64,000 nt of DNA from Spirochaetota bacterium (GTDB lineage Bacteria > Spirochaetota > Spirochaetia > Sphaerochaetales > Sphaerochaetaceae), in NCBI GenBank assembly GCA_918298275.1, contig CAKJZO010000081.1, positions 1 to 64,000 of the forward strand. Reading direction: 5' to 3'. This document shows positions 51,149-56,363 of the stretch, piece after piece. The position numbers were made by a program, and so were the translations under genes. The notes under the pieces are model-generated. The model saw only the letters and a list, made by a program, of their open reading frames with translations. It was not told the DNA's origin and did no database searches. Each line of letters opens with the position of its first letter. The stretch's first letter is position 1.

Positions 51149-52060
51149 TCAGAAAGCCCTGCTCAGGAAGGCTCTCAGCTCCAGTCTGTTGGCCATCTTC
51201 GTTGTCGGAACAAGGTAATAATGGTCCGAAACGACGAAACCGATCGAGAAGTTCTTGTATCTGTGATATCTGAGTCCGATTTCGATGGCCATACCTGCCT
51301 TGACGGAATTGCCGTTGATGAACGTGAATCCCATATCAGGTCCGATGGCACCCCATACATCGCAGTTCCCGACAACCGTAGTTGCAAGGGCCTGGGCGTT
51401 CAGATATGCCTGAAGCTGCATCTGGCTCGGCTTGTAGAACAGATGCTTGGAGGTATAGATACCTACATTGCCCTTCACTCCGATATCGAAGATTCCGGCC
51501 TTGAAGAAGGTCCTGAAATATGAAGCGTTGAATCCTATTGTCTTCGGGGCTGCCGAATCCGGGATGCTGTCCATGTAGCCGATGCCCAGATCCAGATACA
51601 CAAGAGGCTTGTACTCCTCGACCTCGACGGTAGGAACATCGATTTCATCCTCTATGACCGTTGCAGCGGCAACCTCTTCATCTGTTGCAGGCTGTTCGGC
51701 TGGAGTCTCAGGCTCGGAAGTCTCCTCCGGCTGTTCTTCGGGCTCTGCGGGTTCGGGCTCCTCGCTCTCGGTATAGATCTCGGAATCAGTAGCGCTGCTG
51801 GGGCTCCAGATTATCCCGTCGTAGGACTGCTGCAGATACAGGGTGTGCAGGACGGACACGTCCAATGTCAGGGACACCTCGTTGACGTTCCGGTCAACTA
51901 CAATCCATCTTCCGTCCTCCTCTCCATCGACCTGATACCTGTAGAATTCGACATCCGGATCGTTTTCATACCATGTCCAGGTGACGATTCCGTCAAGTGC
52001 GAACAAGCCGACAACAGAGACAAACAGCAGGATTGCGATGAACAACAGTTTCTTCATCAT
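51149..52060 (-). CDS. Exported protein with acidic P/E-rich linker and beta-rich C-terminus, probable outer-membrane protein
   Basis: 303 residues. After the signal peptide (MMKKLLFIAILLFVSVVGLFA) comes a fibronectin-like segment WTWYENDPDVEFYRYQVDG, then an acidic linker of repeated E-P-E/E-E-P/A-E-Q units (about residues 92-130), then about 170 residues of alternating hydrophobic strands (YLDLGIGYMDSIP, NASYFRTFFKAG, IGLRYHRYKNFSIGF) ending in Phe, as outer-membrane barrels do. I recognise no named family. Its first codon overlaps the nucleotidyltransferase stop by four bases. Confidence 0.75.
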   Translation of the reverse strand: MMKKLLFIAILLFVSVVGLFALDGIVTWTWYENDPDVEFYRYQVDGEEDGRWIVVDRNVNEVSLTLDVSVLHTLYLQQSYDGIIWSPSSATDSEIYTESEEPEPAEPEEQPEETSEPETPAEQPATDEEVAAATVIEDEIDVPTVEVEEYKPLVYLDLGIGYMDSIPDSAAPKTIGFNASYFRTFFKAGIFDIGVKGNVGIYTSKHLFYKPSQMQLQAYLNAQALATTVVGNCDVWGAIGPDMGFTFINGNSVKAGMAIEIGLRYHRYKNFSIGFVVSDHYYLVPTTKMANRLELRAFLSRAF

Positions 52061-52965
52061 TTCTCCCAAAGTTTTTCGGGATAGACACCCGCCTTGGTCT
52101 TGAGGGCCAGGTTCTGTTTGACAGTATCCCTGTCCTCCTTGTACGTCATTCCGAACCACTTCTCCGTGGTTGAGAAGACCTTCAGTGTTCCTATACCCTT
52201 CTGGACCATTTCACCAGCGCAGTTGGGAAGCAGGACCTCTGCCTTCGGGCTGGTGGCATTCTCTGCCATGAAGCGCTCGAAGTACTCCGTCATGTAATCG
52301 AAAGCCTTGGGCGTGAATCCGAAGAAGTTCATCGAGACCCACTCATCACCTGTAAGATACACATCGCCTTCCGGAAGATGAGATACTATCCTGTCTCCCT
52401 CGAACTCGATCTTGGTGTTTTCCCTCATTCCCTGGAGCAGACCGTCCTTAACCTGGCAGACACCGCGTGAGACACTGCCCATCGGGCTCATCGTGTTCTT
52501 GAGCAGATAGCCTACCATGGCATGTTCGGTGCTGTCGTTCGAGAGCTTGGAAAGATAATCGCCCAGAATTCCATATGCCTCACGGCCGTAGAAATCATCG
52601 GCATTGATGACGGTAAACGGCTCTTTGATGACGTCCTTGGCACAGAGAAGAGCATGGATCGTTCCCCATGGCTTGGTCCTTCCCTCCGACTGCTTGATCT
52701 GCTCGGCATTCAGAAGCGACTCATGTGTCTGGAACACATACTCTGCGTCCATGTTCCTTGCAATCCTGTCGAAGAGTCTCTCGCGGAAATCCTTCTCGAT
52801 ATCAGGCCTGATTATGAATACGACCTTGCCGTATCCGCTCTTATAAGCGTCATAGACACTGTAATCCAACAGTGCTTCACCGTGCATTCCAACCGGATCA
52901 ATCTGCTTGACTCCACCGTATCTGGAGCCAAGACCTGCAGCAAGAACCAATAACGAAGGCTTCAT
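52057..52965 (-). CDS. NDP-sugar pyrophosphorylase-like nucleotidyltransferase
   Basis: 302 residues. LAAGLGSRYGGVKQ is the nucleotide-binding loop of sugar-nucleotide pyrophosphorylases, with VINADDFYG as the metal-binding Asp pair and GDEWVSMNFFGF later. It transfers NMP to a sugar 1-phosphate or related alcohol phosphate. The C-terminal region (TTEKWFGMTYKEDRD) belongs to an uncharacterised subgroup, so no substrate is named. It is translationally coupled to the exported protein gene. Confidence 0.87.
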   Translation of the reverse strand: MKPSLLVLAAGLGSRYGGVKQIDPVGMHGEALLDYSVYDAYKSGYGKVVFIIRPDIEKDFRERLFDRIARNMDAEYVFQTHESLLNAEQIKQSEGRTKPWGTIHALLCAKDVIKEPFTVINADDFYGREAYGILGDYLSKLSNDSTEHAMVGYLLKNTMSPMGSVSRGVCQVKDGLLQGMRENTKIEFEGDRIVSHLPEGDVYLTGDEWVSMNFFGFTPKAFDYMTEYFERFMAENATSPKAEVLLPNCAGEMVQKGIGTLKVFSTTEKWFGMTYKEDRDTVKQNLALKTKAGVYPEKLWEK

Positions 52966-53061: not shown

Positions 53062-54216
53062 TCAGCAGAACGGAATATCGATTTCAACCACGAAATCCAG
53101 GTTGAAGCCGCACTTGACCTCTTGCTTCAGATAGCAGGCGATCTGATCTGCGCTGTAGTGCTTCTCCGGAGGAACCACGCAGTCGAATATAACCTTCGTA
53201 AGGTCCTTTCCATCCACCATCCTCACGTCGTGGAAGGTAATCTCCCCGTCGAGCTTCTTCAGTGCAGCTGCAATCTTGGCCTTGATATCATCAAGTTTCT
53301 CGTTGCCCACCTGAACCGGGTCCATATGGATGGTGATCGATATGCCGAGTTCATCCTTGAAATCCATCTCTATCTTGTCCACGATGTCATGGATCTCGAC
53401 TATGCTCTGCGCTTCATCCACCTCGACATGCACTGTCACGAAATCGTTGTGAACCCCGTAGTTGTGAAGCACCAGATCATGGATACCCAATACACCGGGA
53501 TAGGACAGGATCTTGTCTGAAATCATCTTCACCCGTTCATGTGTGGGTTTGATTCCAATCAGCGGAGCAACCTGCTCTTTGATGGTCCTAATGCTGCTGA
53601 TTACAACAAAAACTGAAACAACCAATCCAACCAGGCCATCGATATTGATTCCACTGATTGCTATCACAATCATTGCGACCAGTATTCCGGCTGTAGTTAT
53701 GATATCATTCCTGGAGTCTTCGGCACTTGCTTTCAGAGCAGGCGAATCTATGGCCTTGCCGCATCTGATATAAACGATCATCTGCACGACCTTGACCGCA
53801 ATCGCCAGTGCAAGAGTGATGAAAGTAACTGCAGTGATCGACAGCTCCTGCGGGTCGATGATCTTTGCAATGGATTCCTTTGCGAACACTACTCCGGTGA
53901 GAAGCATCACTATACCGATGGTGAAGCCGAAAAGATATTCATACCTTGCATGTCCGTAAGGATGCTCGCGGTCAGGTTTCTTCTCGACAAGGGTGAATCC
54001 CAGAATCGTGAGAACGCTGGATGCGCAGTCGGAGATATTGTTCGCGGCATCAGCCACTATACCGATACTTCCGGTCAGCAGTCCGATGGCGATCTTCAGA
54101 ATGCCGAGCAGAAGATTGGAAACAATACCGAACGTCCCTGCCCGTTTGGCATAGCGGGTTCGAATCTGAGGTTCGACATTGTATCCGGAGCTTTTTTCTG
54201 TCTGCATCTGCATCAT
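53062..54216 (-). CDS. Cation diffusion facilitator transporter
   Basis: 384 residues. Six membrane segments contain the metal-site motifs SGSIGIVADAANNISDC and DSRNDIITTAG, with HPYGHARYEYLFG after the second. The C-terminal third has one clear ZT-dimer metal-binding domain and a second degenerate one. It exports a divalent cation such as Zn2+, Fe2+ or Mn2+ by proton exchange. I start at MMQMQTEKSS; no ribosome site is evident and a TATAAT box lies only eight bases upstream, so the true start is uncertain. Confidence 0.9.
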   Translation of the reverse strand: MMQMQTEKSSGYNVEPQIRTRYAKRAGTFGIVSNLLLGILKIAIGLLTGSIGIVADAANNISDCASSVLTILGFTLVEKKPDREHPYGHARYEYLFGFTIGIVMLLTGVVFAKESIAKIIDPQELSITAVTFITLALAIAVKVVQMIVYIRCGKAIDSPALKASAEDSRNDIITTAGILVAMIVIAISGINIDGLVGLVVSVFVVISSIRTIKEQVAPLIGIKPTHERVKMISDKILSYPGVLGIHDLVLHNYGVHNDFVTVHVEVDEAQSIVEIHDIVDKIEMDFKDELGISITIHMDPVQVGNEKLDDIKAKIAAALKKLDGEITFHDVRMVDGKDLTKVIFDCVVPPEKHYSADQIACYLKQEVKCGFNLDFVVEIDIPFC

Positions 54217-54270
54217 AACTGGGATTATAGATTCAAATCCCCGAAATGGTAATACCAAATCCTCCATCAC

Positions 54271-54301
54271 TTGCCCGAAACCGTTCAATCAGGTATATAA
54301 T
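54271..54301 (+). promoter_or_regulatory. Putative promoter of the tRNA-Arg/aminotransferase unit
   Basis: A perfect TATAAT at 54296-54301 has TTGCCC 19 bases upstream, a long but tolerated spacer. Transcription would start near 54307, about 29 bases before the tRNA. Confidence 0.5.
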
Positions 54302-54335
54302 CATTGATTGCCTGCTTTGTTTACGTTCAGGCATC

Positions 54336-54407
54336 GGGTCCATAGCCCAATGGATAAGGCGCATCCCTCCGGAGGATGAAATGCGGGTTCGATTCCCGCT
54401 GGACCTA
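54336..54407 (+). tRNA. tRNA-Arg (anticodon CCG)
   Basis: A full cloverleaf can be drawn: acceptor GGGTCCA/TGGACCT (first pair G-T), a three-pair D stem, anticodon stem CATCC/GGATG with loop CTCCGGA (anticodon CCG at 54369-54371), a short variable region and T arm GCGGG-TTCGATT-CCCGC. The discriminator is A. CCA is not encoded and must be added. It decodes CGG. The next gene starts one base later. Confidence 0.95.
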
Positions 54408-54408
54408 T

Positions 54409-55560
54409 ATGAAGTACGATTTCGACACAGTGACCGACAGACGAAACACAGGCTCCGTGAAATGGGACGTCAGGGAAAACGAGCTTCCCATGTGGGTCGC
54501 CGACATGGACTTCAAGACAGCCCCTGAAATCCTTGAGGCCATCCAAAGGCGTCTGGACAACGGAATCTTCGGCTACTCCACCCTTCCGGATGAATGGGCC
54601 CTTTCCTATGTCCACTGGTGGGACAAGCGCCACAGCTTCAAGACCGAGGCTTTCTGGTTCAGTTTCTGCACGGGCGTCATCCCGATCATTTCCTGCGCAA
54701 TCCGCGAATTCACGGAACCGGGGGACAATGTCCTGATCCAGGCCCCTGTCTACAATGCCTTCTACAACATAATCAGAAACTGCGACCGCAATGTGGTCGA
54801 ATCCCTGCTTACCTACCGCTCCGGGGAATACTCCATGGACTTCGAAGACCTCGAGGCAAAGCTCTCGGATCCAGAAACAAAGATGTTTGTACTATGCAAT
54901 CCGCACAATCCCGTGGGCAGGATCTGGAGCAAAGAGGATCTTCAGAAAGTCGGAGAGCTCTGCAAAAAACATGGAGTCCTGGTGATCTCGGATGAGATTC
55001 ACTGCGACATCACGGACCCGGACATCCTCTACACCCCGTTTGCTTCAGTATCCGAATGCTGCTTGCAGAACAGCATCACCGCCATGGCTCCCACCAAGTG
55101 CTTCAACATCGCGGGCATACAGAGTGCTGCCGCGATGACCCCGAACCCGGATCTTCGGGCCAGAATCGAAAAAGCTCTTTATCGGAATCTGGCCAATGAA
55201 CCCAATTCCTTCGCAGTAGCGGCAACGGTAGCCGCCTTCGAACATGGAGACCGGTGGCTGGACGAGATGAGAAGCTATGTATATCAGAACAAGCAGACTG
55301 TCCTGGATTATGTGCGGAAGAACATCCCCGGTCTGTATGTCGTTCCTTCCAGGGCCACTTACCTTCTCTGGCTGGACTGCTCCGCATTCACATCGGATTC
55401 CCTGTCATTTGCAGCAGAAATCCGCCGCAAGACCGGACTATTCCTGTCCTATGGCACACAGTACGGTGAATCGGGAAAGCAGTTTCTGCGCTTCAACATC
55501 GCCTGCCCGCGCACACTGCTTCTGGACGGCCTTGATCGTCTCAGGCGCGCCCTCAGCTGA
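54409..55560 (+). CDS. MalY/PatB-type PLP aminotransferase, probable cystathionine beta-lyase
   Basis: 383 residues. The opening MKYDFDTVTDRRNTGSVKWD is the conserved start of the MalY/PatB branch of aminotransferases; VCGTGV-like FCTGVIPIISCAI, the CNPHNPVGRIW segment and the pyridoxal lysine in APTKCFNIAG follow in order. These enzymes cleave C-S bonds of cystathionine or cysteine conjugates. Because the first codon matches the family start, it lies one base after the tRNA-Arg gene, leaving no normal ribosome site. An ATG inside the tRNA (54376) is in frame but rejected. Confidence 0.92.
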   Translation: MKYDFDTVTDRRNTGSVKWDVRENELPMWVADMDFKTAPEILEAIQRRLDNGIFGYSTLPDEWALSYVHWWDKRHSFKTEAFWFSFCTGVIPIISCAIREFTEPGDNVLIQAPVYNAFYNIIRNCDRNVVESLLTYRSGEYSMDFEDLEAKLSDPETKMFVLCNPHNPVGRIWSKEDLQKVGELCKKHGVLVISDEIHCDITDPDILYTPFASVSECCLQNSITAMAPTKCFNIAGIQSAAAMTPNPDLRARIEKALYRNLANEPNSFAVAATVAAFEHGDRWLDEMRSYVYQNKQTVLDYVRKNIPGLYVVPSRATYLLWLDCSAFTSDSLSFAAEIRRKTGLFLSYGTQYGESGKQFLRFNIACPRTLLLDGLDRLRRALS

Positions 55561-55562
55561 CA

Positions 55563-56363
55563 TTACCTCAGGAACTTCTCTATCAACCTATCGACATATC
55601 GTGTATCCAAAGGGTTCTCATTATCCTCAAAGGTCATGATCAGGTTTATTCCGGGTATATAACCTTTCTGGCAATACATGAACTGTTTCCAGAAGAATGT
55701 CTTTCTATATTTAGAATCATCCATCCTGCCGAAGTGCTCCCAGCGGTAAATGTTCCTGGTCCTCTTGTTCAGAACAGTAAAGTCAGTATATATCGGCCTT
55801 GCGCCTTCAATCGGCAACGGATACTCGTACCTGTAAGGAACTCCCGCATCAAACAGTCTGTCTGCGATTATCTGTTCGGATTTCGATCTGACCCTATCCC
55901 CTCTCTTTGTATAGTACTCGGGATCCCCCTCCTCAAACCTTCCTCCCTCATACTGCTTCGCCTGCCACATTCTGGCATATTCGTCATCAGGGAGCACATA
56001 AGGCTCAACCAGAACCCGCTTCCCTTCGTTCATCCCGGTGTAGACTTTCAGCAGAGCATCCTCGTCACTTTGTTCAAGGAATCTGCAAAGCAGTGTTTTC
56101 TCTCTTTCAGCTACTTTTATCGCTTTTTCGTAGTACTCTTTCTGTGCCAGTTTCCTGGCATATCCGATTTCATTCTTCTTTAGATATCTTCCCGTACTAT
56201 CAGTCTTTCCTTCTCTGCAGAAGTATTGGTAATAGGCTCCATCTTTTTTTCGGAATTGTCCTGCCTTGAGAATCCCATACGGCAACCCCTGAATCTTCTT
56301 CTTGAACAACGAAATGGAAGAATCAAAGAAGGCCAGTCTCTTTTTTAACAAATCATACAGCAT
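55563..56363 (-). CDS. Putative PD-(D/E)XK nuclease-fold protein
   Basis: 266 residues. The N-terminal 130 residues are helical and basic. The C-terminal half holds a restriction-endonuclease-like core: RSKSEQIIADRLFDAG (Glu in the first helix), YTDFTVLNKRT (Asp) and IYRWEHFGRMDD (E in the position of the E-x-K strand, with W-E-H). This matches a family of uncharacterised proteins seen in gut anaerobes, annotated as hypothetical. DNA or RNA cleavage is inferred. The ribosome site AGGTGAG is good. Four inverted-repeat units lie directly upstream. It converges on the aminotransferase gene with a two-base gap. Confidence 0.75.
   Translation of the reverse strand: MLYDLLKKRLAFFDSSISLFKKKIQGLPYGILKAGQFRKKDGAYYQYFCREGKTDSTGRYLKKNEIGYARKLAQKEYYEKAIKVAEREKTLLCRFLEQSDEDALLKVYTGMNEGKRVLVEPYVLPDDEYARMWQAKQYEGGRFEEGDPEYYTKRGDRVRSKSEQIIADRLFDAGVPYRYEYPLPIEGARPIYTDFTVLNKRTRNIYRWEHFGRMDDSKYRKTFFWKQFMYCQKGYIPGINLIMTFEDNENPLDTRYVDRLIEKFLR

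Follow-up and report, generated by a model that had tools for sequence, protein, structure and literature searches.

In animal mitochondria, excision of the tRNAs that punctuate the transcripts sets the 5′ ends of the mRNAs and leaves them with no more than a few leader bases. The tRNA cluster located before tufB in E. coli provides a bacterial example of a tRNA-mRNA operon, from which the tRNA is cut out while the mRNA keeps a leader with a Shine-Dalgarno (SD) sequence. Another point of comparison is Leptospira interrogans, a spirochaete and presumably a distant relative of the organism studied here. Its transcripts are reported to include about 440 leaderless mRNAs; their leaders are shorter than 10 nt and, for half of these mRNAs, shorter than 2 nt (PMC5243855). 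According to a review, a 5′ phosphate, a short distance from the 5′ end to the AUG and a weak structure all favour leaderless translation (PMC9031893). In the selCAB operon of one termite-gut symbiont lineage, the tRNA-Sec gene ends at position −2 of the selA start; for related tRNA-Sec overlaps, the same source describes a leader-less mRNA left by tRNA processing and reads it as repression (Mukai 2021, PMC8124441). This case is the nearest to ours: our search of open-licence PMC papers found no published bacterial case with an ordinary tRNA, and the accessible sections of two other papers handle leaderless mRNAs and tRNA processing apart (PMC4681348, PMC3848588).

The locus described here lies in the window, i.e., the whole 64,000-nt stretch of DNA that was analysed, and associates a tRNA-Arg gene (anticodon CCG) with a malY/patB-like C-S lyase gene. 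As in mitochondrial punctuation, the tRNA abuts the coding sequence and leaves no room for a leader (1 nt in the window, 1 and 2 nt in two relatives), but this concerns one transcript and not a whole genome, the ribosomes are bacterial and most genes of this organism have leaders. As in tRNA-mRNA operons of the tufB type, tRNA and coding sequence would share one transcript with no terminator between them; however, the SD leader retained in the latter has no counterpart at malY of the window. The selC-selA case shares with our locus the end of the tRNA at −2, the bacterial context and the position of the tRNA 5′ of a PLP enzyme gene, but associates tRNA-Sec and its own enzyme in a special-purpose pair (PMC8124441), whereas at our locus the tRNA is an ordinary elongator and the gene behind it is a metabolic one with no known connection to that tRNA. 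Lastly, the start codon is predicted to lie very close to the 5′ end, in a weakly structured region, as in bacterial leaderless mRNAs (PMC9031893, PMC5243855); for most of the latter that are known, transcription begins directly at the AUG, whereas the 5′ end would here come from tRNA 3′ processing.

The tRNA-Arg(CCG)/malY junction and its history in the genus

ARAGORN calls a single tRNA gene in the window, tRNA-Arg(CCG), which matches Rfam RF00005 (63.7 bits) and is near-identical across the seven aligned members of the genus (Table 1). The junction runs from ...TGGACCTA over a single T into ATGAAGTAC. An earlier note on this DNA had placed the discriminator base at 54407 and the ATG at 54409, and both positions are correct according to ARAGORN and the sequence; the range at its head extends to 54411, the third base of the start codon. 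Relative to A54409, the tRNA ends at −2 and, as that note had pointed out, the 1 nt that separates the two genes leaves no space for a normal ribosome site. The downstream protein matches NCBIfam TIGR04350 (PatB family C-S lyase) from residue 5 with 410.5 bits for a cut-off of 340. An assembly artefact is ruled out, since two other genomes of the genus (G006 and G007) carry the same junction. Overall, the tight tRNA-Arg/malY junction is real, goes beyond chance and is common to these three genomes.

Table 1. Features of the tRNA-Arg(CCG)/malY locus of the window and selA loci of the family.
Feature	Position or locus	Strand	Support or genomes
TTGCCC, −35-like box of the putative tRNA promoter	54271..54276	+	In all seven aligned genus members
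TATATA, −10-like box, 17 nt from TTGCCC	54294..54299	+	TATA-like box visible in all seven aligned genus members
TATAAT overlapping TATATA	54296-54301	+	
tRNA-Arg(CCG), no encoded CCA, discriminator A54407	54336..54407	+	ARAGORN, RF00005
GGA of the acceptor strand (3′ side); no other SD-like stretch precedes the ATG	54401..54403	+	Anti-SD duplex −3.0 kcal/mol
Lone nucleotide separating tRNA and ATG; the released mRNA is predicted to begin with it	54408	+	RNase Z specificity
malY/patB-like C-S lyase gene, 383 aa	54409..55560	+	TIGR04350, PF00155, purifying selection
selA loci behind tRNA-Sec	L334-L341		G154, G140, G139, G130, G152, G026, G024, G076

Some other features of this tRNA and of its surroundings can be mentioned. 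The first acceptor pair of tRNA-Arg(CCG), 54336/54406, is G-U, likewise in relatives. Another locus of the same genome (L079, contig C9) carries a tRNA-Arg for which ARAGORN gives the anticodon GCG, also reported in relatives; the usual bacterial anticodon for that tRNA-Arg is ACG. At the other end of the locus (55558-55563 region), a convergent ORF on the − strand (55563-56363) ends 2 nt away from the end of malY, and it is therefore probable that transcription from the tRNA through malY continues antisense into this ORF.

The conservation of the MalY start, also claimed previously, holds in all eight genus genomes in which the gene was found: the protein begins with M[KRT]YDFDT[VI] at the same column. 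In three of them (G010, G009 and G002), the same ATG is located 13, 13 and 35 nt behind tRNA-Arg(CCG) and is preceded by an SD-like AAAGG (the longer tRNA call of ARAGORN in G009 and G010 gives a spacer of 12 instead of 13 nt). Since the same codon follows an SD-like spacer in these relatives, comparison with them fixes the start codon of malY independently. The spacers of G010 (L004) and G002 (L006) repeat GGACC(TA) from the 3′ end of the tRNA (AAAGGACC), which may have arisen by slippage or by a partial duplication.

The genus set includes 11 genomes, several of which are incomplete (63-95%), so single absences carry little weight. Asked whether relatives keep the junction, the comparison gives a divided answer: malY lies directly behind the tRNA in five other genomes, but only two of them share the tight arrangement, at 1-2 nt, while the three others have 13-35 nt with an SD-like element. 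The spacer is 1 nt in the genome of the window (G000) and in G006 (96% MalY identity to the window protein) and 2 nt in G007 (74%). In G008, a DUF3737 gene (PF12541, 429 bits) stands between the tRNA and malY, which are 865 nt apart; in G005, DUF3737 also precedes malY, and no tRNA was called at that locus. The three remaining genomes had matches at the tRNA alone (G003 and G004) or at neither tRNA nor malY (G001). Within the genus, DUF3737 was found only in G008 and G005 (2 of 11). Related loci of other bacteria (L097-L176, n = 80, 47-59% identity, mostly Firmicutes and none from this genus judging by titles) showed a DUF3737 match in 63 cases, one of them on the opposite strand. DUF3737 is thus the usual upstream neighbour of malY (L097-L176 and L007/L008), which suggests a link to this C-S lyase.

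The MalY tree, G005, (G008, ((G007,(G000,G006)),(G002,(G010,G009)))), groups the six genomes in which malY directly follows the tRNA (support 93/83) and, within them, the three with a tight junction (99/98). Since DUF3737 is kept in G008 and G005 outside this group, a single loss of its gene is the simplest account; of the two resulting lineages, one has an SD spacer and the other a 1-2 nt leader. With two of the five relatives at 1-2 nt and three with an SD-like spacer, the near-leaderless state is, as far as this sampling of the genus indicates, a trait of one clade (G000, G006 and G007). The tight junction would not be needed, since three relatives keep a normal leader. Behind it, malY is under purifying selection: over the 383 codons, G000 and G006 differ by dN 0.019 and dS 0.331 (synonymous sites are near saturation in the comparison with G007). 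In other genera (L012 in G034, L013 in G017 and L020 in G016), tRNA-Arg(CCG) precedes a gene whose start, by eye, resembles that of the nucleotidyltransferase-like ORF 52057-52965 of the window. This tRNA seems to have swapped partners between genera.

Proposed origin and translation of the malY messenger

The earlier proposal that both genes share a transcript finds support in the sequence: promoter-like boxes lie 5′ of the tRNA, no terminator was found in the 75 nt behind it and the gap is 1 nt. We therefore infer that tRNA-Arg(CCG) and malY are co-transcribed. In the same genome, 27 of the 41 tRNAs have a terminator-like site ≤75 nt downstream, a count that misses hairpins, as at least five of the 14 uncalled tRNAs show one by eye. 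A generic promoter scan of 54100-55700 detected no promoter-like site on the + strand, the TTGCCC/TATATA boxes being also uncalled. Transcripts joining a tRNA and an mRNA with an ordinary leader seem usual in this genome. tRNA-Trp and tRNA-Thr(GGT) also lead into reading frames, and since the latter have AGGAG ahead of their ATG, the odd part of our locus would be the missing leader.

RNase Z cleaves tRNA precursors that lack CCA just behind the discriminator base, so that the trailer carries a 5′ phosphate. The reading that we favour, with a probability slightly above one half (about 55%), is that (i) the tRNA promoter starts a two-gene tRNA-Arg(CCG)-malY transcript, (ii) RNase P would trim the 5′ side of the tRNA, (iii) RNase Z would cut behind A54407, because CCA is not encoded, (iv) this cut would release a 5′-phosphorylated mRNA beginning with U-AUG, and (v) ribosomes would translate this mRNA by the leaderless route, a bacterial form of tRNA punctuation. 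Both the cleavage product and its translation are thus predictions. RNase Z is encoded by G000 (337.5 bits, cut-off 292.95) and scores over the cut-off in eight of the 11 genus genomes; ten of the 11 have a PolyA_pol domain. Little structure is predicted for the first 60 nt of the released RNA (−5.6 kcal/mol; 192 of 200 shuffled sequences fold at least as stably), and likewise for the counterpart 5′ region of G007 (−2.9 kcal/mol, 164 of 200). Furthermore, a folded tRNA ending at −2 would not fit into the 30S mRNA channel; translation would therefore require either prior removal of the tRNA or opening of its acceptor and T arms. Two points may count against the favoured model: the 5′-monophosphate end could shorten the mRNA lifetime and the single base before the AUG could lower leaderless translation. 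The link between tRNA maturation and enzyme synthesis, also proposed from the sequence, may mean merely one common transcript.

An unlikely alternative is that MalY is made only from the precursor RNA, its tRNA being unfolded or unprocessed, with the GGA of the acceptor strand, 5 nt ahead of the ATG, serving as a weak SD, so that tRNA folding and protein synthesis would compete. This GGA is well placed and provides the best anti-SD duplex at −20..−4 in the three tight-junction species (−3.0 kcal/mol in each). malY of G008 does not have a much better one (−3.5 kcal/mol), though it lies directly behind the DUF3737 stop. Among the 80 relatives, five have a duplex as weak as that of the tight trio or weaker. 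Such a weak SD is not remarkable in the window, since 15 of its 47 long ORFs (≥200 aa, from the first ATG) have none better. However, the tRNA dictates this GGA, which the SD-led relatives have as well; its presence hence gives no sign of selection. Moreover, the tRNA fold is stable (−29 kcal/mol) and is retained in the minimum free energy structure of a longer precursor, and the selA and ABC ATPase genes described below have the same layout without any SD match.

The main functional rival of leaderless translation is repression by processing: tRNA processing would switch malY off by leaving an untranslatable or short-lived mRNA, and low MalY would be tolerated or used. It has been proposed, in work on the tRNA-Sec overlaps, for the leader-less mRNA that tRNA processing leaves (PMC8124441). 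It would also fit with a tight junction that came after the loss of the DUF3737 partner gene. Nevertheless, we regard it as distinctly unlikely, because malY is under purifying selection and has been kept through divergence to 74% identity, and because the similar position of seven of the eight selA genes of the family is hard to reconcile with it.

A promoter belonging to malY itself, inside the tRNA gene or upstream, could start transcription at or near the ATG and make the tRNA an incidental neighbour. Leaderless mRNAs from start-codon promoters are indeed common in a spirochaete (PMC5243855), but the scan mentioned above found no such site, and the −10 position for a start at 54408/54409 falls in the fixed T arm and acceptor, which hold no TATAAT-like hexamer; this makes such a promoter very unlikely. 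Finally, translation starting inside the tRNA, either at the ATG 54376, in frame with malY (11 extra residues), or at the ATG 54381, from which translation would couple to malY, which the GGAGG of the anticodon arm precedes by 5 nt and whose ten-codon counterpart in G007 (L003) ends in a TGA overlapping the malY ATG, is hardly credible, since the 2-nt spacer of G007 puts the counterpart of 54376 out of frame, the 54381 frame of G000 continues out of frame with malY to 54527, neither start is conserved and both require an unfolded tRNA.

selA and ABC ATPase genes behind tRNAs in the family

Junctions of this kind are not restricted to malY. A selA gene scored over the cut-off in eight of the 139 genomes of the family (G000 gave no match), and a tRNA-Sec gene lies just upstream in all eight (Table 1). 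In seven of them, the ATG is located 1, 3, 4, 4, 4, 4 and 7 nt behind G73. In the eighth (L340, G024), no ATG, GTG or TTG was found between the tRNA-Sec and the conserved SelA N-terminus, so that translation may begin at an unusual codon or within the tRNA, unless the sequence contains an error. selC is often found near selA and selB, according to one paper (PMC5330540). At the scale of the phylum, a tRNA-Sec pattern matched 35 of 392 genomes. Among the 30 loci read, 19 hold selA; in seven, including one that also belongs to the family set (L309, G026), 1-6 nt separate the tRNA from the opening of the selA frame, and the start is 11-12 nt off, further downstream or unclear in the others.

A third association, seen in one genus of the family, involves tRNA-Pro(GGG) and an oligopeptide-type ABC ATPase gene, separated by 2 nt in G088 (L274), 5 nt in G100 (L275) and 7 nt in G120 (L287), among 30 loci read from matches in 47 of 48 genomes. 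In G098, G084, G087, G091 and G096, which belong to the same genus, the ATPase gene has a leader with GGAGG or GGAGGG. None of the 11 selA and two ABC ATPase rows scored had an SD match (+0.3 to +2.4 kcal/mol). These cases repeat the malY pattern, that of an almost leaderless gene behind a tRNA. Their acceptor strands are pyrimidine-rich, which argues against a role of the acceptor strand as SD.

A broader pattern, GGTTCRANTCCN{11,13}ATG, had matches in 101 of 138 genomes of the family, of which 90 loci were read (30, plus 60 chosen by hand), so that this screen gives no rate of tight junctions. A tRNA was called in 67 of these 90 loci and, among the matches read, only two distinct tight junctions besides that of malY looked real, namely those of selA and of the ABC ATPase gene described above. 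The other matches were discarded: some were short ORFs or ORFs that read through a terminator-like hairpin, others fell outside tRNAs, and a coding motif that recurs among the latter presumably belongs to isoleucyl-tRNA synthetase.

Taken together, tRNA-Arg, tRNA-Sec and tRNA-Pro(GGG) allow a wider proposal: the family might use tRNA 3′ processing by RNase Z as a standing route to leaderless malY, selA and ABC ATPase mRNAs, with protein output tied to tRNA maturation. We put it forward tentatively, as a possibility that we would not yet bet on.

Implications

Mitochondrial tRNA punctuation is classical, and one selC-selA case with identical spacing had already been described (PMC8124441). To these, the present locus adds an ordinary elongator tRNA paired with a metabolic gene, a reconstruction of how the junction evolved, and the finding that such junctions recur within one family. 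Should the released RNA be translated, bacterial RNase Z would be an enzyme that makes messengers, like its mitochondrial counterpart, and leaderless mRNAs could arise from processing too and not from transcription start alone. The genus provides a natural series in which one gene behind one tRNA goes from SD-led to near-leaderless, and selC-selA provides a second one. With these two series, the possibility that tRNA processing feeds leaderless translation becomes directly testable with short reporters.
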